DNA of 64,000 nucleotides. It comes from Thermoanaerobaculum aquaticum. GTDB lineage: Bacteria > Acidobacteriota > Thermoanaerobaculia > Thermoanaerobaculales > Thermoanaerobaculaceae. This document shows, one piece after another, positions 71 through 9,484 of the stretch. Position numbers and translations under genes: made by a program. A model generated the notes under the pieces. It was not told the DNA's origin and did not search any database. It saw only the letters and a program-made list of their open reading frames with translations. Each line of letters begins with the position of its first letter. Positions within the stretch are counted from its first letter, which is position 1. The stretch spans positions 128,880-192,879 of the forward strand of contig NZ_JMFG01000008.1 in NCBI RefSeq assembly GCF_000687145.1. Direction: 5' to 3'.

Positions 71-2023
71 CTACCCGTGGCAGGCTCCGCAGAACTCCCC
101 GCTCATGCCCCCAGCGTGGCACTTCTCGCAGGAATCCACACCGTTTTCCCGGGCAAAGGCCGGGTGGGTTTCGGCCCAATCGCCGGGGTGGGGCATGGCC
201 ACACCGCCGTGGCAGGCGGTGCACTGGGCTTTGCCCACCGTCACCCGGCCGTGATCCGGCCAAGCGCTGTGGCACGCCACGCAGCGCACCTCCGGGTGGG
301 AGAGGTGCTTGGCGTGGGAAAACCGCACGCCGTCCACCTCCTTGTCGGCCGGAGCGGTGGTGTGACAGGGCTGGCAGGCCTCGGCCCGCTCACCCTTGTG
401 GCAGGTAGCGCACGCCGCCACCCCTACCCGCTCCAGGGTGGCCTTGGCTTGCCGACGAAAACCAGCCGGGTGCGGCATCTCCACCCCACCGTGGCAGCGG
501 GCGCAATCCTCGGGCTTGAGGGTGGTCTTCCCGTGGTCCGAGCGGGGGGTGTGGCAGGCGGTGCACTGCTCCACCGCCCGGGCATGGGGGCCGTGGGGGA
601 ACGGCTTGCCGGCAAAGCTCAAAGTTGCCGTGGGAGGCTCCAGGTGGCAAAGCCGGCACTCGTTGGCCTTCATCACCTGGGCCTCGGGCACCCCGGAAAC
701 CTCCAGCTTGAGGCCCGCCGCCTTGGCTAGCTTGAGCGCCTCATTTTGCGCTTCCGCCAAAAGCGCCATGGCAAAGCCAATGTTGTGCACGCCGTGGCCA
801 GCCTTCACCTCGTCCACCTTGCCCAGGGCAAGCTTGAGGCTCTCCTGCAGCTCGGCGCGCCCCTTAACGGCGGGTGTTACTGCAGCTAAAGCCCTTTCGG
901 TTTCCGGCAAGCGCTGGGCGAGAAGCGCCCGCCACCCCTGGAGGATCTGGCCGTAGCCGGGGCTATGGCAGGTATCGCAGGATTCCGGCGTGGTGGCCCG
1001 CACTTTGCCGCCCTCCGCCAGCTCCCGTTCGCTGGTGTGGCAGCCCACGCAGTGGACGTTCACCTGGTACATGGGGCTGGGCTCAGGGCTGCGGTGGGGC
1101 TCCACCGCCGAAGCCCCCACGTAAAGCCGCAGCTGGTTTTCATGGGTCCCCGAGTGGCAGTCCCGGCAGTTAAGGCCTTCCGCCAAGCTCACCTTGCGAA
1201 TGGAGTGGGTGATTTCGATATGGCATTCGGAGCACTCCACCTTGTGCTTGGTCACGTGGGTGGAATGGACGAGGTCCAAATCCTCGTACTTGGCCAGGCG
1301 GTCAGCTTCGTTGTGGCAGGAAAGGCAGTGCTGGCGGGGAACCTCCCCGGTACCACGGGTAATGTCGCCGTGGCACCGCTTGCAGTCCACTTTGTTGGCC
1401 AAGATGTGGCGGTGGTCAAAGCGGTTGGCTGGGATTTTGGTGACGTCGTGGCAGGTCTGGCAGCGAGAAAGGTCCTGCTGCCAAGACACGCTCTTAAAGT
1501 GGCACAGGAAGCAGGTGGAGGGAGTCACCGTAAGGTGCTGTCCTTGCACGATTTGAGCGTGGCAGGAGGTACAGCGCAGTTGCTTGCCGCGCTTGAGATC
1601 CTTGAGGTGATGGGAGTGGTCAAAGCGAATGGTGCCGTCGGGGCCAAAGGGCACCGTGCCGGCTAAAAGCCGGGTCTCATGGCAACCGGAACGCAAGCAC
1701 GCCGCATCTTCCACCTCCGCCCAGGGTTTGGTGCCGTAGGTCTTGGTCACGTATTGCACCACCTGCGAGATCGCAACGATTTTCGCGCGAATAACCGACT
1801 TGAAACCGGGAGGGTAATGGCACTTGAGGCAGCTCACCTGGTTGTGGGAAGATTGCTGCCAGGACTGGTAGTAAGGCTCCATGTAGTGGCAGGTAACGCA
1901 GAACTGTGGCCGCTGGGTGTATTCCAAAAACCCGAAAAACACCGCAGCCAGGACCGCGACAGCGATTGCAATAATTTGCAATCGTTTGGCCCAACTCATT
2001 TTACGCAAGGTTCCTTCGGCCAT
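71..2023 (-). CDS. 21-haem NapC-anchored c-type cytochrome
   Basis: Predicted periplasmic electron-transfer protein of 650 residues. A membrane helix at about residues 14-34 is followed directly by the first haem site (C42), the layout of NapC/NirT quinol dehydrogenases. I count 20 CxxCH motifs and one CX4CH (residues 109-115), so 21 possible haems. Twelve precede and nine follow a haem-free helical stretch (354-455) holding GHGVHN (409-414). It shares this plan with the 18-haem protein upstream. A GGGGGGAGC ribosome site precedes the ATG. It is the last gene of the cytochrome cluster in the window and lies beyond a strong terminator, so its expression may be lower or separately driven. Substrate and partner are not visible; no CxxCK catalytic haem site is seen. 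Confidence 0.93.
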   Translation of the reverse strand: MAEGTLRKMSWAKRLQIIAIAVAVLAAVFFGFLEYTQRPQFCVTCHYMEPYYQSWQQSSHNQVSCLKCHYPPGFKSVIRAKIVAISQVVQYVTKTYGTKPWAEVEDAACLRSGCHETRLLAGTVPFGPDGTIRFDHSHHLKDLKRGKQLRCTSCHAQIVQGQHLTVTPSTCFLCHFKSVSWQQDLSRCQTCHDVTKIPANRFDHRHILANKVDCKRCHGDITRGTGEVPRQHCLSCHNEADRLAKYEDLDLVHSTHVTKHKVECSECHIEITHSIRKVSLAEGLNCRDCHSGTHENQLRLYVGASAVEPHRSPEPSPMYQVNVHCVGCHTSERELAEGGKVRATTPESCDTCHSPGYGQILQGWRALLAQRLPETERALAAVTPAVKGRAELQESLKLALGKVDEVKAGHGVHNIGFAMALLAEAQNEALKLAKAAGLKLEVSGVPEAQVMKANECRLCHLEPPTATLSFAGKPFPHGPHARAVEQCTACHTPRSDHGKTTLKPEDCARCHGGVEMPHPAGFRRQAKATLERVGVAACATCHKGERAEACQPCHTTAPADKEVDGVRFSHAKHLSHPEVRCVACHSAWPDHGRVTVGKAQCTACHGGVAMPHPGDWAETHPAFARENGVDSCEKCHAGGMSGEFCGACHG

Positions 2024-2061
2024 GCTCCCCCCGCCGGAAAATCTTTTTTTGCGTTTTCAAC

Positions 2062-2085
2062 AAAAAAGGGGCCGGAACCGGCCCC
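2062..2085 (-). terminator. rho-independent terminator after the tetrahaem gene
   Basis: On the minus strand GGGGCCGG and CCGGCCCC form a perfect 8-bp stem with a two-base gap, followed by six T. It lies 12 bases beyond the tetrahaem stop codon and before the 21-haem gene, so it should end or attenuate the cytochrome transcript. Confidence 0.85.
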
Positions 2086-2096
2086 CCGTTTCGCCA

Positions 2097-2531
2097 CTAC
2101 TTCTTGTGGGCGTGCACCAGCTCGCGGTCAAACTTCACCGGCTTGTGGTGGTCCTTCCCATCGTGGCAGCTGTTGCAGGTTTCCTGAGTGGGAATGATGA
2201 GGCCGTTGGCAACGGCCTTTTCCCGGTCCTTCATGATGGACATGGTCTTGTAATCCGAACCCGGGCCGTGGCACGCCTCGCACTGCACACCCGAAAGCGC
2301 CTCGTCCTTGTTGGTGGCGTGGCAAGAAAGGCAGGACGCATCAAACTTCCACTTGGTGCTGGCCTTAGCGGTTTCCGTGGCTTTGGCATGCCTGGTGGTA
2401 AGCCACGAATCGTACTGCAGCTTGTGGCACATTTTGCACTTCTCCGCCCCAATGTAGCTGTGCTGCGCGTTGCTCGAGCCCACCGCTGCTAACAAAAAAG
2501 CACCCGCAACCAGTCCGTAGCTTGCTTTCAT
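2097..2531 (-). CDS. Small tetrahaem periplasmic cytochrome c
   Basis: A 144-residue exported electron carrier. The ATG at 2531 follows GGAGGAACGGAG; a longer reading to 2555 lacks such a site. A cleavable-looking signal peptide ends near SSNAQ. Four CxxCH motifs (CKMCH, CLSCH, CEACH, CNSCH) resemble the small cytochrome c554-like family, and further His residues near the end (DHHKP, HAHKK) could act as axial ligands. It is 87 bp downstream of the 18-haem gene and followed by a terminator. A soluble shuttle between the membrane modules and a distal acceptor is the simplest role, but this is inferred. Confidence 0.9.
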   Translation of the reverse strand: MKASYGLVAGAFLLAAVGSSNAQHSYIGAEKCKMCHKLQYDSWLTTRHAKATETAKASTKWKFDASCLSCHATNKDEALSGVQCEACHGPGSDYKTMSIMKDREKAVANGLIIPTQETCNSCHDGKDHHKPVKFDRELVHAHKK

Positions 2532-2618
2532 CTCCGTTCCTCCCTGCGGGGCCACCCCCCGAGACCATACTAACCCCTTGTGAAGGAGTTTGCAAGCTAT
2601 CGTGTTTTCGTTTACAAA

Positions 2619-4577
2619 TCAACGGCTTGTGGGAATTGCCTGTCCCACCAGCGAACGTATCCTGGCTGCAGCCTTGGCCGCCAGGTCCATGTTGTGCACC
2701 CCTTTGGCCTTGAGCAAGGCGTTGTAAAGAGCCTCGGCTTCCCTGAGGGCTTCGGGATTAACCTTAGCCGCCTTGGCTTTGGCCAAAAGCACCGCCAGCT
2801 CCTGCAGCCTATTTTGGTCCTCGTTGATCCACTCCACCAGCATGGCGTCGTAGCCTTCCTCGTGGCAGCTCACGCAGGCCTTTTGGACGCTGGCTACCAG
2901 CGGTTCTTGGCGCTTCAAGTCGTGACACCCGCTGCACTCCACGCCGGCAGCAGCCATGGGGTCAGGGTCCCCCTTAAAGCCGGTACCCACCGCCTCACCC
3001 GCAGCCAAACTGGCCTGGGCTTGGTGACAACGGCTGCAGGGTTGAGCCTGCTTGGGGCTGTGATGGCAGGACATGCAGCCTTCAGCCACAATCGTGGTTT
3101 TCCCGTGTTCCTCCACACTGTGGCAGCTGTCGCAGGACAATCCAGCGCCTAAGTGGCGGCTGTGCTCAAAGCCCATGTTGGCAAACTCCAGCCGCAAAGC
3201 CAGGTGGCTGGTGGAATGGCAAACCCGGCAGTACCCGCTTTCCGAAGCCAAAATCGGCGAGCTAGGCACCGCTACCCCAGGAACCCGCCGGGCTTGCTCC
3301 AGGGCGTAGCGTAGCAGCTCCACCGCGTAGCGGACGTTGTGCTCCCCATGACCCCGGGTCACAAAGCGCACGTTGTGCCACGCCTCTTCGAGACCGCGAC
3401 GGTACTGCTGGCCCCGGGTGCCCATGCGGGTTACGTTGTTTTCCGCTTGGGCAAGAGCCCGCTCCACGAGGCCCCGCAGCTCGCCCAGCTCCCGAATCCA
3501 GTCGTCCACCATGCGGTCGTAGCCGGCGCCGTGGCAGTGGACGCAGGAAGCCCGCAGCTTCTCCGCCCCCACCCGGGGATCAGAGCCAGGTTCCGCGTGG
3601 CAGGAATCGCACGCCACCCGCGCCAAAAACATGGTGGACGGCATATCGGGAACGCCCTTGCCGCCAATGCCCACGTACATTTGCTCCTGGGCGGTGTGCT
3701 CCGGCTTGTGGCAGTTCTCACACCGCTCGCCCAACGCCGCCGCCATGGCAATCTTGCCGTGCTCCATGCGGTTGTGGCAGCGCTTGCAGTCAATGGCGTG
3801 CTTTCGCAAATGAATTTCGTGAATCCGCTGGCTGTCGCCAATGGCTTCGGCTCGCGATACGTGACAGGCCGCGCAGCGCTCCACCGGAACGTTGGCATCT
3901 CCGCGGGTGACCTCGGTGTGGCAGGTTTCGCAGCGCACACCCCGCTGCAAGTAGGTGCCATGATCAAACTGGAAGCCCTGGTGGGTGACCACCACTTTCG
4001 GCGGCCCGTGACACACCAGGCACCCCGTTACCGCCTGCCCCTGTTCGGCCCCCTTGAAGTGGCAGGTAAAGCACACCGCTTCGTCCACCCCCACGTGGGT
4101 GGCGGCCTCGGTTTCGCCCATGACAAGGCCTGAGTGACAGGAGGTGCAGTGCAAACGCTTGCCCCGGCGCATCTCACCCAGGTGGTCCTGGTGCGAAAAG
4201 TGAATGTCCTTCAAAAACACCTTATCGGTGTCGAGGTTTTGCTTTTCGTGGCAGGCCAGGCAGCGGCCGTCGGGGACTTCCGCCCGCAACTGGGTCGTAT
4301 AAATCCCCAACGCGTATTTGAGGTACGTGCGGGAAAGCACGTAGCGGTATTCGGTATGGCAGTAAACGCAAGCCACATCCCGATGGGTAGATTGCCGCCA
4401 CATTTCCACGTACGGTTTCATGATGTGGCAGGATTCGCAAAGCGAAGAGGAGGAAGAAGCAAAGAAGAACACCGCGTGAAAAACAAAAACCACAGCTGCA
4501 ATCCACGCCAGAAGCAGGAGGAGAGCGCGGCGATGCTCGATGATGCCTTCCCAAATGGCGAGCAGCAGGTGCCTCAC
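2619..4577 (-). CDS. 18-haem NapC-anchored c-type cytochrome
   Basis: 652 residues with one N-terminal membrane helix (about 17-40) and the first haem site at C47, as in NapC/NirT. There are 18 CxxCH motifs. The first twelve precede a haem-free helical module (350-449) with GHGEHN at 409-414; six more follow; a second such module with KGVHN (625-629) ends the protein. Each module is introduced by CxxCHxxGYxxxxxxW. The gene starts inside the stop of the upstream cytochrome b gene (ATGA overlap), so the two are probably co-translated and work together. Quinol oxidation via that cytochrome b, with transfer along the haem chain, is inferred. Confidence 0.93.
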
Positions 4578-5485
4578 GCCTCACCTCCTTGCCCTGAACG
4601 CGTCTTCATCAGGCGTTCGTACTCCAGGGGGTGTTCTTCCTTCATTTGTCGCTCGCTGATTTTCCCGGTAATAAAGGTTTTGTTCATGGGGAAAGAATGC
4701 GGGTTTAGGTGGACGTTGTAAAAATGCCAGATGATGATGGCCAACGTTGCCAGCAAAGCCTCATCCGAATGGGCTTCTTTGGCAATGTCGGTGACCCATT
4801 TGGGGACGTATTTCAAAAACCACTCGGTAAACCACAGGACCGTGCCAGAGCCGATCATGATGACCATGCCCCAGTACACCGCCCAGTAGTCGAACTTCTC
4901 CACGTAGCTGAATTTATCGAACTTCGGTTTGGTGTCGGTGAGGCCCAGGTAGTACTTGATCTGCTGCGCCGCGTCTTTGGCGTCCTGCCACCGGGGCAAA
5001 AGCAGTCGGAAATTCTCCCTCCCCTCACGGGTAAAGGCAATATAAAGCAAATGCCAAAAGCCAACGAAAGCCAGCAACGTAGCTGCCACCCTATGGATAA
5101 TGGGTGTGACATCGGGTCCACCCAAAAACGCGATGAGTTCTTTAGCCCAGAAGCTCTCGTGGAACTTAAGGGGAAGGCCGGTGATGATCAGGACGATCAC
5201 CGAAAGCGCCATGAGCCCATGCTGCAAACGCACGTTTAAGGAAAGCCGTTCGAAGAACTCCCCTTCCTCCTCCATTGGGGCGGCTTGGGCTTGAACCGCA
5301 GCCTTTTTCTCGGTCTTTTTTTTATGCCAGTAAAGCTCGCGGCGCACCCAGGTGGAAAAGCGCTTCTCCACCTCTGGTTCAAGCTTGGCGGCAAGCTTTT
5401 GCGCTTCCTCAAGCTCAAGCTTGTGAACCTGAATAAGTTCCTCAACGATGGCTTGCTTCAAGGCGGCTTTGGGTTTTTCAGTCAT
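4574..5485 (-). CDS. Cytochrome b-type membrane subunit with charged N-terminal extension
   Basis: 303 residues from ATG 5485, which overlaps the stop of the 9-haem gene by 8 bp; the longer open frame to 5683 is only read-through in that gene. The first ~85 residues are a charged helical cytoplasmic extension rich in Lys/Glu. About four membrane helices follow, with His residues placed like the b-haem ligands of FdnI/HydC-type cytochromes ([28 protein letters not shown]). The C-terminal stretch [13 protein letters not shown]...EHPLEY recurs in the other two b subunits here. Likely quinone-reactive anchor for the 9-haem or 18-haem partner. Confidence 0.85.
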
Positions 5486-6542
5486 GGGCCGTCCTCTTCC
5501 TGAGCTTGGCTCGGAGGTCCAGGAGAATATGCAGGAACAGCGCTGCCAGCGTGCCCGCGGTAAGGTACTTGAAGAACAGCGCCACCCAGTACACAACGCC
5601 TGCATCTCTCTGGCTCGGATCAATGTGAAAACGACCGCGAGCGTAGTTGACGTTGGCGCCGGGGTGGCAGCCTGCCTTGCCACAGGTTTTGGGGATGTTT
5701 TCCGGGTTCACCGAAGAAGCCGGATCAGACGGTGGCAAAACGGCGTGGGACGTATGACACGAGGCGCAGTTGGCCACCTTTACCGACCCCAACTCATTGG
5801 CAATTCCGTGGAAAGAGTGCTTAAAGGTCTTCACCGGGTTCACGGGAATTTCGTACTTCCGGTTGAACTCCAAAGACCCGTGGCAACGCCCGCAGGTTTC
5901 GGGAATATGGGAGGCAGAAATTTCTGAGGCCTTTTCTTTTTTGGGGAGGATCTGGTGCTCACCGTGGCAGTCGGTGCAGGAAGGGGCGTCCAAGTTTTGC
6001 TTGAGAAGGAGCGCTTGGCCGTGAACCGACCGGCGGTAGACGTCGAGCACTCCCTCATGGCAACGCCCGCAAGTCAACGGCACATGGCTTTTGTATACCT
6101 TTGAATTGGGAGCCTTCGCCTTCTGCACGTCGTGACTGCCGTGGCAGTCCTGACAGAGAGGTGCTTTGGGGTTGCCCGCCCGCTGCAAACGCCCGTGCAC
6201 CGACTCCACGTAGCCCTGGTAGTTCACGTCCTCAGGTGCGCCCACCGGGTTGCCGGGAAAGTGACAGCGCTGGCACCTGACCTTTTCCAGCCGTGGAGGG
6301 TGGGGAATAGCGGTGATATCGGCGTGGCAGTCCAAGCAGTGCCACTTGGCGTGAACCGACTGGGCAAGCTCGCGCTCGTCCACAAACAGCGCTCGTACCG
6401 AGCCGTCCGGCTGCACCTTCTTGAACTCACGCCTACCGTGACAGATGCTGCACTGGCGAACTTCTGAACCCGTTTGCTGGGCCCCCGCCGCCACTGCCAA
6501 TGCGCAACCAAGCATCCACCAACCAACCCACCGCCTCATCAT
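5478..6542 (-). CDS. 9-haem cytochrome c with C-terminal membrane anchor
   Basis: 354 residues from ATG 6542, which overlaps the upstream stop as ATGA (ATG 6539 is the alternative). A signal peptide ends near AAGAQQ. Eight CxxCH motifs and one CX4CH (CGKAGCH) give nine haem sites. A single membrane helix close to the C-terminus ([18 protein letters not shown]) with a basic tail keeps the haem domain on the periplasmic face. It has the same design as the 11-haem protein at 8204 and is flanked by cytochrome b genes, which points to a quinone:cytochrome c oxidoreductase module. Confidence 0.9.
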
Positions 6543-7243
6543 TCCTCCACCGGTGGCTCGTCGCCAAAAAGCGCCCGGTACTCCGCCCGATGGTCGCGCC
6601 AAAGCTTTTCTGCCGTGATTTTTCCGGTCAAAAAGGTTCGGGACATGGGGAAGTTTCCCGGACTGAAGTGAACGATGTAAATGTGCCAGACAAAGAGCAC
6701 CAAAAACAGCAAAAGCCCTTCGTAACCGTGAATGACCGCGGTGATGTCGAAAAACCATTTAGGAAGCACCGCCATGGCCTCGGTGTGAAACCAAAGCAAA
6801 AGCCCCGTGAGGATCATCAAAAGCGAGCCCAAACCGGCTCCCCAGTACTGGAGCTTTTGCAGCGGGGTAAATCGGCCAAACTCCGGGAGTTCCTGCTGCT
6901 TTCCACGGTAATAGCGCAGCATACCTATCACGCCCTGGATGTCAGCCCCTCGCGGCACCATGGCCCGCAGTTGCTCATTCCCCCTTGGGGAAAACAAAAC
7001 GTAGCCGAAGTGCCACAAGGTCAACGCCATCAAAATCACGGCAAAAACCCGATGCAAAATGCCCCGGGATTCCATGCCGCCTTCTAGCGCCACGAGCACC
7101 TTCCCCACCCAGGTCCCATGGGCAAAGAGGGCCAGCCCGGTGAGCGCCAGGCCCAAAAGCGTCACCATCAACACCCAATGCTGGACAAGCTCTACCTTCG
7201 TAAACCGGATCACTTCCTGACCCTTTTTCGGTGGTGTGGTCAT
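6539..7243 (-). CDS. Cytochrome b561/FdnI-like membrane subunit
   Basis: 234 residues from ATG 7243 (MTTPPKKG), preceded by GGCGGAGG at a good distance; the longer frame to 7267 runs into the small upstream gene. Four hydrophobic helices carry candidate haem-ligand His residues (VQHWVLM, ILHRVFA, LWHFGYV, VIHGYEG, VWHIYIVHF). The tail FPMSRTFLTGKIT matches the other b subunits. It starts one base after the 54-residue gene and overlaps the 9-haem gene by 4 bp, so it probably anchors that protein and exchanges electrons with the quinone pool. Confidence 0.86.
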   Translation of the reverse strand: MTTPPKKGQEVIRFTKVELVQHWVLMVTLLGLALTGLALFAHGTWVGKVLVALEGGMESRGILHRVFAVILMALTLWHFGYVLFSPRGNEQLRAMVPRGADIQGVIGMLRYYRGKQQELPEFGRFTPLQKLQYWGAGLGSLLMILTGLLLWFHTEAMAVLPKWFFDITAVIHGYEGLLLFLVLFVWHIYIVHFSPGNFPMSRTFLTGKITAEKLWRDHRAEYRALFGDEPPVEE

Positions 7244-7244
7244 G

Positions 7245-7409
7245 TCAAGGCCTCCGCCGGCTGCCAATTTGCTCCACGATCACGTAAAAAAGCATCCCCG
7301 CAATTAAAAGCCCAAGAAAAATTCGGACGGCAAGCCGAAGCCCACGGGGTAACAGGGGCAGGGTTTCTTCTACCTGTGCCACGCTGGCCAAAAGAGCCTG
7401 CATCCTCAT
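7245..7409 (-). CDS. Small single-helix membrane protein of the cytochrome operon
   Basis: A 54-residue frame lying between two cytochrome b genes and easy to overlook. ATG 7409 follows GGAGG at 6 bases; a second in-frame ATG is at 7403. The protein has a soluble N-terminus (QALLASVAQVEETLPLL), one strongly hydrophobic segment (RIFLGLLIAGMLFYVIV) and a basic tail ending SRRRP. It starts 15 bp after the upstream stop and ends one base before the next ATG. Size, topology and tight packing resemble small accessory subunits of respiratory complexes; no family was recognised and its role is inferred from position. Confidence 0.72.
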   Translation of the reverse strand: MRMQALLASVAQVEETLPLLPRGLRLAVRIFLGLLIAGMLFYVIVEQIGSRRRP

Positions 7410-7424
7410 GTTGCCTCCATAGGA

Positions 7425-8207
7425 TCAAAGCAAACCGGGGGACCAACGCATCCACCACAAAAGCCACAGGCTCCCCAAAACAAATAAGGCTGTGACCACA
7501 ATGAAAACCAGCACCCTCGCCAGCGCTGGCGGCTCCGGTTTTGGCACTTCCCCTCGGCGGATTTGCTCCAGCTCCAGCGGGTGTTCCTCGGCGTAAAGCT
7601 CTTCTTCCAAGTAACCGGTGAACATGGACCTGTTGAAATGCCGCAGGTGCACAAAATAGCTGTGCCACGTAAGAATGGACAACACCGCGAGAATAGCCTC
7701 CCCACCGTGGGCGGTTTTGGCGGCAATCACGCCTTGGCCGGTGATGACCTCCGCCCAACGGATGGGGTAAAGCAGCATGAGACCGGTGCCCACCATCAAC
7801 ACGGTCCCCCAAATAAGCGCCAGGTACTCGATTTTTTCCGCAAAGGTGTAGCGCTCCATACGGGGAGGCTCGGCAACCAACCCCAGGTTGTAGCGCACCT
7901 GCTGGAGGAAATCCTGGATATCTTTGAGCCGTGGAAGCATTGTGGTGGGATAGCGCCGGACCATGTGCAACCACAGGAGCTCCAAAAGGTGCACCACCAG
8001 CTGGATCGCCATGATGGTGCCGCAGAGGTGATGGAGCCAGCGGGCCCGTTCAACGCTGCCAAAGATGAGGATGAGACCCTTAGCCCAAGCTTGCTCCGGG
8101 TACTTTTGCGGCAGCCCGGTCAAGGCCAAGAGCGTAAAGCACACCACCATGATCGCGTGGCTCACCACTTGCCATGTGGAAAACCTGCGGATCCGTCCCG
8201 GGTTCAT
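7425..8207 (-). CDS. Cytochrome b-type membrane subunit
   Basis: 260 residues from ATG 8207, overlapping the 11-haem stop as ATGA; ten extra residues in the open frame are read-through. Helices with paired His (VVSHAIM, WLHHLCGTIMA, VVHLLELL, LTWHSYFVH) match the diheme b cytochromes of formate dehydrogenase and Ni,Fe-hydrogenase. An added hydrophobic segment at the C-terminus (VLVFIVVTALFVLGSLWLL) is absent from the two sister b subunits. The conserved MFTGYLEEE...EEHPLE tail is kept. Probably the quinone-side partner of the 11-haem protein. Confidence 0.86.
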   Translation of the reverse strand: MNPGRIRRFSTWQVVSHAIMVVCFTLLALTGLPQKYPEQAWAKGLILIFGSVERARWLHHLCGTIMAIQLVVHLLELLWLHMVRRYPTTMLPRLKDIQDFLQQVRYNLGLVAEPPRMERYTFAEKIEYLALIWGTVLMVGTGLMLLYPIRWAEVITGQGVIAAKTAHGGEAILAVLSILTWHSYFVHLRHFNRSMFTGYLEEELYAEEHPLELEQIRRGEVPKPEPPALARVLVFIVVTALFVLGSLWLLWWMRWSPGLL

Positions 8208-9424
8208 TGTGGCCTCCGCTGCCGACGCCGGGCCCACACATCAAGGGCAATGTAGGCCAGGAAAAACCCAACCGTTGACGGGATTACCACTTGGTAAAAC
8301 AGCCGCACGTAGTAAATCAGCGGGTAACGCTCCCGATCCGGTACGTAGTGCGCCGTCCACGCCGACAAAAACTTCTTGCTGGCCCGCGGATGACAGACCT
8401 GACAGCGCTTGAGGAGGCGCTCCTCCACCTTTTCGGTTCCCAGCTTTCGCACCGATTCCACATCATGATAGCCGTGACAGTCATAGCAGACGGCCTTATT
8501 CAAAGGTTGATCGGGGCTGGTGGCGACGAAAAGCTCAGCCGTGGTCCCGTGAAAATCGGCAACGTAGGTATCAAAAACCTCGGCGCGCAGCCCGTATTTG
8601 CCGGCAACCTTGGGGTCGGCGTGGCAACGGGCGCACATTTCCGGCGAAACGTTGCGAAAACGCGGCAAACGCGGGTCCAAAGTGGCGTGGGCGGCATGGC
8701 AATCGGTGCAGGTTGGAACGTCCGCGTTCCCCGCGCTTAAGCTCCGTCCGTGCACCGAGGCTAGGTAAACCTCCGTAACCCGCCGGTGGCAGGTCCCGCA
8801 CGTTGTGGGCACGCTTAGGCGATGCACGTGAGAAGCTGGGTCCTTGGCCGGCAAGATGTCGTGGCCGCCGTGGCAAGAGACGCAGGTGGCCGCGAGATCA
8901 AGCCCCGCCAGCTGCACCCCGTGACCGTGCACGCCCACCAGGTACTCCTGCTTGTTGTGGCAGTGAAGGCAGGTGCCGGCCACGTTGGCCGGCGCCAGGC
9001 TCGATTTGGGATCCTGGCTCGGCCGGACATCGTGAGCGCCATGACAGTGCCAGCACTGGGCGCGGAAGCTCCCCTGGCCCAAGGGGTCTTTGTGCACCGA
9101 GCGGCTCACCGCGGCGGCGGCATCCCCGTGACACCCCAGGCACGGGTTTTCCCGGCTCATGCCCTTAGGATGGGGAACTTGGGAAGCCCTGGGGTGACAG
9201 TCGAGGCAGGCCAAGGAATCGTGCACCGAATCGGGGCCCACGGCCACCACCAGCGCCGAAAGCCGCCCCGGAGCGAGGTGGGCACCCAAGCTCTCTGCGG
9301 CCGCCTGGACGTCTTCCACACTCCCGTGGCAGGAAAGGCACTCGTCCCGGGGAGCAGAGGTGGCTGCGGTAGCCACCAAAAGGCCTAAAACTGCAAACCA
9401 CCGGCGGTCGCTTCGAAGGCTCAT
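8204..9424 (-). CDS. 11-haem cytochrome c with C-terminal membrane anchor
   Basis: First gene of the cytochrome operon, 406 residues. The signal peptide (FAVLGLLVATAATSA) is followed by 11 CxxCH motifs and one C-terminal membrane helix (VVIPSTVGFFLAYIALDVW) with an Arg-rich tail, the same design as the 9-haem paralogue. Repeating SVHG and GxHD segments between haems are typical of this family. The start follows a GGAGGGGAGG ribosome site, and a good promoter lies just upstream (9446-9474). Likely accepts electrons from the adjacent cytochrome b and passes them outward. Confidence 0.91.
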   Translation of the reverse strand: MSLRSDRRWFAVLGLLVATAATSAPRDECLSCHGSVEDVQAAAESLGAHLAPGRLSALVVAVGPDSVHDSLACLDCHPRASQVPHPKGMSRENPCLGCHGDAAAAVSRSVHKDPLGQGSFRAQCWHCHGAHDVRPSQDPKSSLAPANVAGTCLHCHNKQEYLVGVHGHGVQLAGLDLAATCVSCHGGHDILPAKDPASHVHRLSVPTTCGTCHRRVTEVYLASVHGRSLSAGNADVPTCTDCHAAHATLDPRLPRFRNVSPEMCARCHADPKVAGKYGLRAEVFDTYVADFHGTTAELFVATSPDQPLNKAVCYDCHGYHDVESVRKLGTEKVEERLLKRCQVCHPRASKKFLSAWTAHYVPDRERYPLIYYVRLFYQVVIPSTVGFFLAYIALDVWARRRQRRPQ

Positions 9425-9445: not shown

Positions 9446-9474
9446 AATTTAAGAAAGAATTCACAATTTGTCAA
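9446..9474 (-). promoter_or_regulatory. Sigma70-like promoter of the cytochrome operon
   Basis: On the minus strand TTGACA (9469-9474), a 17-bp spacer and TAAATT (9446-9451), 22 bp before the first cytochrome start. The -35 is perfect and the -10 matches four of six. The AT-rich tract stands out from the GC-rich surroundings. Confidence 0.75.
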
Positions 9475-9484
9475 TTGATGACAA
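9468..9484. promoter_or_regulatory. Inverted repeat over the -35 box, candidate operator
   Basis: TTGTCA and TGACAA form a perfect 6-bp inverted repeat with a 5-bp centre, and one arm coincides with the -35 element of the cytochrome promoter. The placement suits a dimeric repressor or redox regulator. The regulator is not identifiable from this window. Confidence 0.45.

Follow-up and report, generated by a model that had tools for sequence, protein, structure and literature searches.

Gene content of the multihaem cytochrome locus

The window analysed here is a 64,000-nucleotide stretch of the Thermoanaerobaculum aquaticum genome, and it carries a minus-strand run of nine genes that reads from position 9424 to position 71. 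These 9.4 kb encode five multihaem cytochromes, three cytochromes b and one 54-residue membrane protein in the order A-B-S-C-D-E-F-G-H. A preliminary description of this DNA had listed three b-type proteins with a small membrane protein, which are B, C, E and S, and cytochromes with 11, 9, 18, 4 and 21 haem motifs, a tally that is exact once two CX4CH motifs, one in D and one in H, are counted. Gene order in related genomes divides the run into two units, A-B-G and S-C-D-E-F, plus H.

Unit 1 opens with A (8204–9424, minus strand, as for all nine genes), a predicted periplasmic c-type subunit of 406 residues with a signal sequence, 11 CX2CH motifs and one C-terminal transmembrane (TM) helix. 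B (7425–8207) is a 260-residue FdnI-type cytochrome b with candidate b-haem ligands at His17, His59, His167 and His182. The third gene of this unit is G (2097–2531), which encodes a small soluble tetrahaem cytochrome c of 144 residues with a signal sequence that resembles cytochrome c554 and scores above the PF13435 cut-off. Unit 2 begins with S (7245–7409), whose 54-residue product has a single TM helix and matches no Pfam or PHROGs family. It continues with C (6539–7243), an FdnI-type cytochrome b of 234 residues (His22, His64, His172 and His187), and D (5478–6542), a 354-residue cytochrome with a signal sequence, eight CX2CH motifs, one CX4CH motif and one C-terminal TM helix. E (4574–5485) is a 303-residue FdnI-type cytochrome b with an N-terminal extension (His89, His131, His239 and His254), and F (2619–4577) is a 652-residue, 18-haem protein with an N-terminal TM helix at residue 12, a CxxCHxM motif at residues 47–53 and helical inserts. 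The last gene, H (71–2023), encodes a NapC-type protein of 650 residues with an N-terminal TM helix at residue 15, CxxCHxM at residues 42–48, 20 CX2CH motifs and one CX4CH motif.

The 4–8-bp overlaps ascribed to the whole locus in the preliminary description hold at four junctions: A/B and E/F (4 bp each), D/E (8 bp) and C/D (within this range). The other four are gaps of 15 bp (B/S), 1 bp (S/C), 87 bp (F/G) and 73 bp (G/H), and three of these four gaps fall where comparison with other genomes places the borders between modules. The genes beyond the end of the locus had been marked for checking; the operon stops at H, facing guaB on the opposite strand. Upstream of A lie the ordinary genes spoVG and ispE. 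An Rfam scan of the window returned no match. AlphaFold models of H and A were too poor to use, with mean predicted local distance difference test scores of 46.6 and 39.9, respectively.

Haem motifs and quinone-site signatures

The five c-type cytochromes contain 63 haem motifs (A, 11; D, 9; F, 18; G, 4; H, 21), of which 61 are CX2CH and two are CX4CH (CGKAGCH in D and CLRSGCH in H). This number does not arise by chance: when the sequences of these proteins are shuffled, they average 0.02–0.22 motifs, with a maximum of 3. Conserved distal histidines number 11 for the 11 haems of A, 11 for the 9 of D, 22 for the 18 of F, 20 for the 21 of H and 3 for the 4 of G. Since these histidines equal or exceed the haems in A, D and F and fall one short in H, most or all haems of the four proteins look bis-histidine-ligated and wire-like, without a catalytic site, and G may hold a five-coordinate haem. 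A terminal reductase for a soluble substrate (nitrite, a sulfur oxyanion or arsenate) could hide in such a place, for example in the cytochrome c554-like G with its three conserved distal histidines for four haems, or in the helical part of F or H, parts of which align weakly to 6i5b (F) and to octahaem nitrite reductase (H). Such an enzyme is very improbable given that the five cytochromes contain no CxxCK motif, that the distal histidine counts fit bis-histidine ligation in A, D and F and nearly so in H, and that no locus protein scores above the cut-off of a curated reductase family. The preliminary description had likewise seen no terminal reductase.

B, C and E score above the Pfam cut-off for PF01292, and the locus encodes three of the four proteins in the genome that do so. 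They match the structure of FdnI, the γ subunit of formate dehydrogenase-N (1kqf_C), with an expect value of 2e-8 for C and weaker values for B and E. In the alignment to 1kqf_C, each ligand of the two b haems of FdnI (His18, His57, His155 and His169) has a counterpart that does not vary in any of the 16 B/C/E family proteins compared. The three proteins therefore share with FdnI the fold family and all four ligands, but they have multihaem c partners instead of a formate dehydrogenase partner and score below the TIGR01583 cut-off. In phylogenetic trees, B, C and E each fall into a clade of their own with positional counterparts from other loci, and branch support is good near the window proteins and weak deeper in the tree.

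The anchors of F and H resemble those of NapC-type quinol dehydrogenases. H is the best NapC-family match in the genome (PF03264, 50.5 bits against a cut-off of 24.1), and F scores 19.0 bits, below the cut-off, although it aligns to NrfH; for the NapC anchors proposed earlier, the profile thus gives a mixed result. The best solved-structure match of H is NrfH (2j7a, expect value 1.8e-8), and H Lys81 aligns with NrfH Lys82. Both proteins carry CxxCHxM, the haem-1 motif of NrfH, which is kept in nearly all relatives in the phylum. The N-terminal TM helix and CxxCHxM haem 1 are features shared with the NrfH, NapC, CymA and TorC quinol dehydrogenases, but those proteins have 4–5 haems compared with 18–21 in F and H, which also have c3/c7-like arrays and helical inserts and fall below every curated NrfH and TorC cut-off. 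F of the window groups with other F proteins in the tree. Giants of the F/H family occur in 31 of 297 sampled Acidobacteriota genomes, mostly singly, and two in one operon occur in two species of Thermoanaerobaculum. The pairing is unusual, as the preliminary description had stated. Another Acidobacteriota family has a 950-residue open frame (L103 9621–12473) that carries 27 haem motifs and appears to be an H-type protein extended at its N terminus by a further cytochrome part.

Modular history of the locus

Judged from gene order in relatives, the locus is a composite in which S-C-D-E-F lies between B and G of an A-B-G unit and H follows G. Ten related genomes from two families have A-B-G in that order, and four further genomes have A-B, either by itself or truncated at the end of a contig. 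Three other genera of the family have a free-standing C-D-E-F with an S homologue in front of it, and an S homologue also precedes C in a second Thermoanaerobaculum species (G001). In family f2, H lies elsewhere, and at three loci its neighbour is a 23-haem protein that includes a cytochrome b domain. The arrangement with S-C-D-E-F between B and G and H after G is found in Thermoanaerobaculum only: the window has it, and so does G001, whose contig stops within B on one side and within H on the other. Misassembly is ruled out by the independent assembly of G001 (L016), which has B-S-C-D-E-F-G-H in the same order at 58–80% identity.

In a third Thermoanaerobaculum species (G002), A-B and G-H are colinear with the window, and blastn aligns none of its sequence to positions 2626–7421. 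Its 440-bp gap between B and G encodes fragments of S (z = 8.1) and D (z = 9.0 and 13.2) scored against shuffles. These relics lie at L020 7664–8203, where the middle module of this sister species was lost. The same relics (z 8–13) rule out a history of insertion alone in which G002 would show the ancestral state. Because they remain between B and G, the composite was already present in the ancestor of Thermoanaerobaculum, and its middle was lost in G002.

The preliminary description had interpreted the overlaps as a single plan. This does not hold because the units are found apart in relatives, gaps lie at their boundaries and a conserved promoter-like site precedes G. A single complex was likewise dropped as the default, since A-B-G, S-C-D-E-F and H occur separately. 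The core of unit 2 extends further: the order of a cytochrome b gene followed by D-E-F is kept at six loci in other Acidobacteriota families, with 47–53% identity for D and 44–59% for E, and for one of them (L101) the first b gene came to light only among the sequences collected for the tree. Fused c-b proteins with 10–23 haems and 4–6 predicted TM helices are homologous to D plus E and to A plus B, and they adjoin relatives of H or of C-D-E-F; those at the three f2 loci have 23 haems and 6 TM helices. A viral origin or viral spread was rejected for lack of any match to F in viral contigs, and a search for plasmid homologues found none for F and one distant cytochrome b for E.

Two putative promoters lie on the minus strand. 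The first precedes A (9446–9474, TTGACA-17-TAAATT); it is a consensus match only and is kept in the sister species at L020. Overlapping its −35 box is a palindrome, TTGTCA-N5-TGACAA (9468–9484), an operator candidate that is present in a single copy in the 2.66-Mb genome and is kept before A in G002. The second precedes G and may also serve H (2567–2595, TTGCAA-17-TAGTAT); it was found by eye, was not scored by the scan and is kept in the two sister species. A terminator-like hairpin between G and H (2066–2087, minus strand) is present in this species only. Promoter matches across the region are no commoner than in shuffles, so the case for these sites is made by their position and conservation.

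Probable electron export from the inner membrane

T. aquaticum MP-01T is a chemoorganotrophic acidobacterium from a hot spring that reduces Fe(III) and Mn(IV) and ferments, with no evidence of sulfate or nitrate reduction (PMC4056298). The locus is the best candidate for the respiratory electron exit from the inner membrane in this organism. The operon probably encodes menaquinol:periplasmic-cytochrome oxidoreductases of the inner membrane that export respiratory electrons for extracellular Fe(III) and Mn(IV) reduction. The preliminary description had proposed a Cbc-type quinone oxidoreductase locus, and both the gene content and the metal-reducing host are in line with it. In unit 1, the dihaem cytochrome b, B, would hand electrons to the anchored 11-haem A and then to the soluble tetrahaem carrier G. 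In unit 2, the cytochromes b C and E would flank the anchored 9-haem D, which would feed the 18-haem NapC-type wire F. H, the 21-haem NapC-type wire, would act as the periplasmic collector from which electrons pass on to porin-cytochrome conduits encoded elsewhere. The gene content, the haem and b-haem ligand motifs, the modular history and the presence of conduits in the genome are observations; from them we infer the subunit contacts, the quinol donor and the direction of flow, and the choice of a metal as terminal acceptor follows the physiology of the organism.

The conduits lie on C20 and C7. C20 (L031 4723–9747) encodes an OmcA/MtrC protein, a DmsE/MtrA protein and a 640-residue barrel candidate in a row. 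The first two score 484.8 bits with TIGR03507 (cut-off 209.3) and 217.4 bits with TIGR03508 (cut-off 192.2), and the barrel candidate, which has no family match, is assigned by size and position. A genome survey that recorded iron reduction by T. aquaticum reported no omcA/mtrC-type cluster in it (PMC5900883). On the profile scores, C20 is an MtrCAB-type cluster absent from that survey. C7 (L032 4268–8872) encodes an MtrA-like decahaem protein (171.2 bits, below the cut-off), a 621-residue barrel candidate and a 7-haem protein. In one relative (G017, L023), H lies 0.5 kb from a cluster orthologous to that on C7 (identities of 55% for the 7-haem protein, 45% for MtrA and 28% for the barrel). 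A separate large cytochrome cluster on C6 (L025 11072–20000 and L026 1–4395) comprises a 21-haem protein, a peptidyl-prolyl isomerase, a barrel candidate and 4-, 7-, 5- and 13-haem proteins.

The likeness to Geobacter Cbc systems noted in the preliminary description holds for the quinone oxidoreductase type and needs sharpening in two respects: the c and b parts are split, and the gene set is nearer to Cbc5 than to CbcL alone. In the CbcL/MtoC/MtrH proteins, an N-terminal c domain with 3–23 CX2CH motifs is fused to a HydC/FdnI-like domain that in most cases has six TM helices (PMC6295460). They share with the locus the coupling of a multihaem cytochrome c to a HydC/FdnI-like dihaem cytochrome b of the inner membrane, and A (11 haems) and D (8 plus one CX4CH) fall within the 3–23 range. 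The c and b parts are fused there and encoded by separate genes here (A plus B and D plus E), and the locus adds an extra b subunit, C, and the NapC-type giants. The likeness to Geobacter CbcL is one of architecture, taken from its published description. A-B and D-E are split relatives of this architecture, whose fused form exists in the loci of relatives. Geobacter Cbc5 (cbcEDCBA) comprises a 7-haem cytochrome c, a cytochrome b, a 12-haem cytochrome c (CbcC/OmcQ), a HAMP dihaem cytochrome c (CbcD) and a small membrane protein, and is predicted to be a menaquinol:cytochrome c oxidoreductase (PMC7894505, PMC11434368). By this published subunit list, Cbc5 is nearest to S-C-D-E-F in gene content (b, c, large c and small membrane protein), but it has 7 and 12 haems and one cytochrome b compared with 9 and 18 haems and two cytochromes b in unit 2. 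A HAMP dihaem subunit like CbcD was not found among the nine genes of the locus. G would be a c554-type functional analogue of the small soluble carrier PpcA of Geobacter, but it is not a triheme c7 and its gene is tied to A-B.

Retention of the b-haem histidines in B, C and E together with CxxCHxM in F and H makes quinol-side function possible at two kinds of site, the FdnI-type b subunits and NapC-type haem 1. By standard bioenergetics, proton motive force would be spent when quinol is oxidised at an FdnI-type site close to the cytoplasmic side, and not by the NapC-type route. Both kinds of site, FdnI-type near the cytoplasmic face and NapC-type at the periplasmic face, might be joined in one supercomplex of ~69 haems (63 c and 6 b), but we regard this as quite unlikely. 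If true, the cell could switch between routes that do and do not spend proton motive force within one assembly, according to the acceptor potential. Geobacter makes this choice with separate proteins, as ImcH, CbcL and CbcBA work in different potential ranges (PMC12307469). A NapC-family search of the T. aquaticum genome for an ImcH candidate found no 3-TM protein, and the match on C23 has 8 haems and one TM helix.

B, C and E have their closest solved relative in FdnI, which works in the menaquinone-reducing direction. The complexes might therefore run in reverse, taking electrons from periplasmic or extracellular donors and reducing menaquinone with energy conservation as in FdnI and Qrc, for electron uptake or recycling. 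Reverse flow is unlikely, though conceivable, given that T. aquaticum is chemoorganotrophic and a reducer of Fe(III) and Mn(IV), and the NrfH/NapC quinol-dehydrogenase motif in F and H and the position of H beside an outer-membrane conduit in G017 also speak against it.

Several points weigh against electron export. The cytochrome b fold by itself does not fix the direction of flow, and the b subunits could equally draw on periplasmic electrons to reduce menaquinone. The H proteins of family f2 lack the first haem and CxxCHxM, and the counterpart of NrfH Asp89 is not conserved in H. The locus shows no strict co-occurrence with MtrC, which was absent at threshold from G002, from two of the three genera with free-standing C-D-E-F (G003 and G005) and from the H-bearing f2 genomes. 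T. aquaticum has other quinol-oxidising complexes, with Rieske/cytochrome b/multihaem sets on C2 and C9 and an apparent alternative complex III on C16. The export role is assigned from sequence comparison and the physiology of the organism.

Two Rieske-like/cytochrome b/multihaem clusters lie at L029 7412–10198 and L030 9648–16884, the second followed by a molybdopterin oxidoreductase. C8 (L108 1604–9119) has what appears to be a [NiFe] hydrogenase operon that includes a b-type cytochrome; apart from the PF01292 match, its genes were named by sequence appearance. The hydrogenase could be an entry point for hydrogen into the quinone pool.

H-type giants at three loci in other Acidobacteriota families (L099, L102 and L106) adjoin a cytochrome b-like protein and a 9-haem cytochrome, which suggests that H may be able to serve different quinol-oxidising partners. 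The locus might then encode a periplasmic electron store or redox hub for several complexes (Rieske/cytochrome b, alternative complex III and hydrogenase), with its haems buffering electrons and no dedicated path to Fe(III). The absence of C-D-E-F beside those three giants, the very high haem count and the loose co-occurrence with MtrC would fit such a store. It is nevertheless improbable, as the tight overlaps of b and c genes and the C-D-E-F order kept across families point to quinone-linked complexes and not to storage alone.

Electron export through the locus would bear on the iron-reduction route of T. aquaticum, which the genome survey left unexplained (PMC5900883). With a candidate inner-membrane exit and an MtrCAB-type conduit, the whole path is therefore open to testing, and the most useful question is whether the two units divide potential ranges as in Geobacter. 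The locus is real and well conserved, and what is new is its composite form of a known inner-membrane cytochrome bc-type electron exit. Because its core recurs in several Acidobacteriota families, C-D-E-F suggests an under-described type of respiratory complex in a major phylum. The nested operon and its relic-bearing loss in a sister species indicate that large multihaem loci are assembled, and lost again, module by module.

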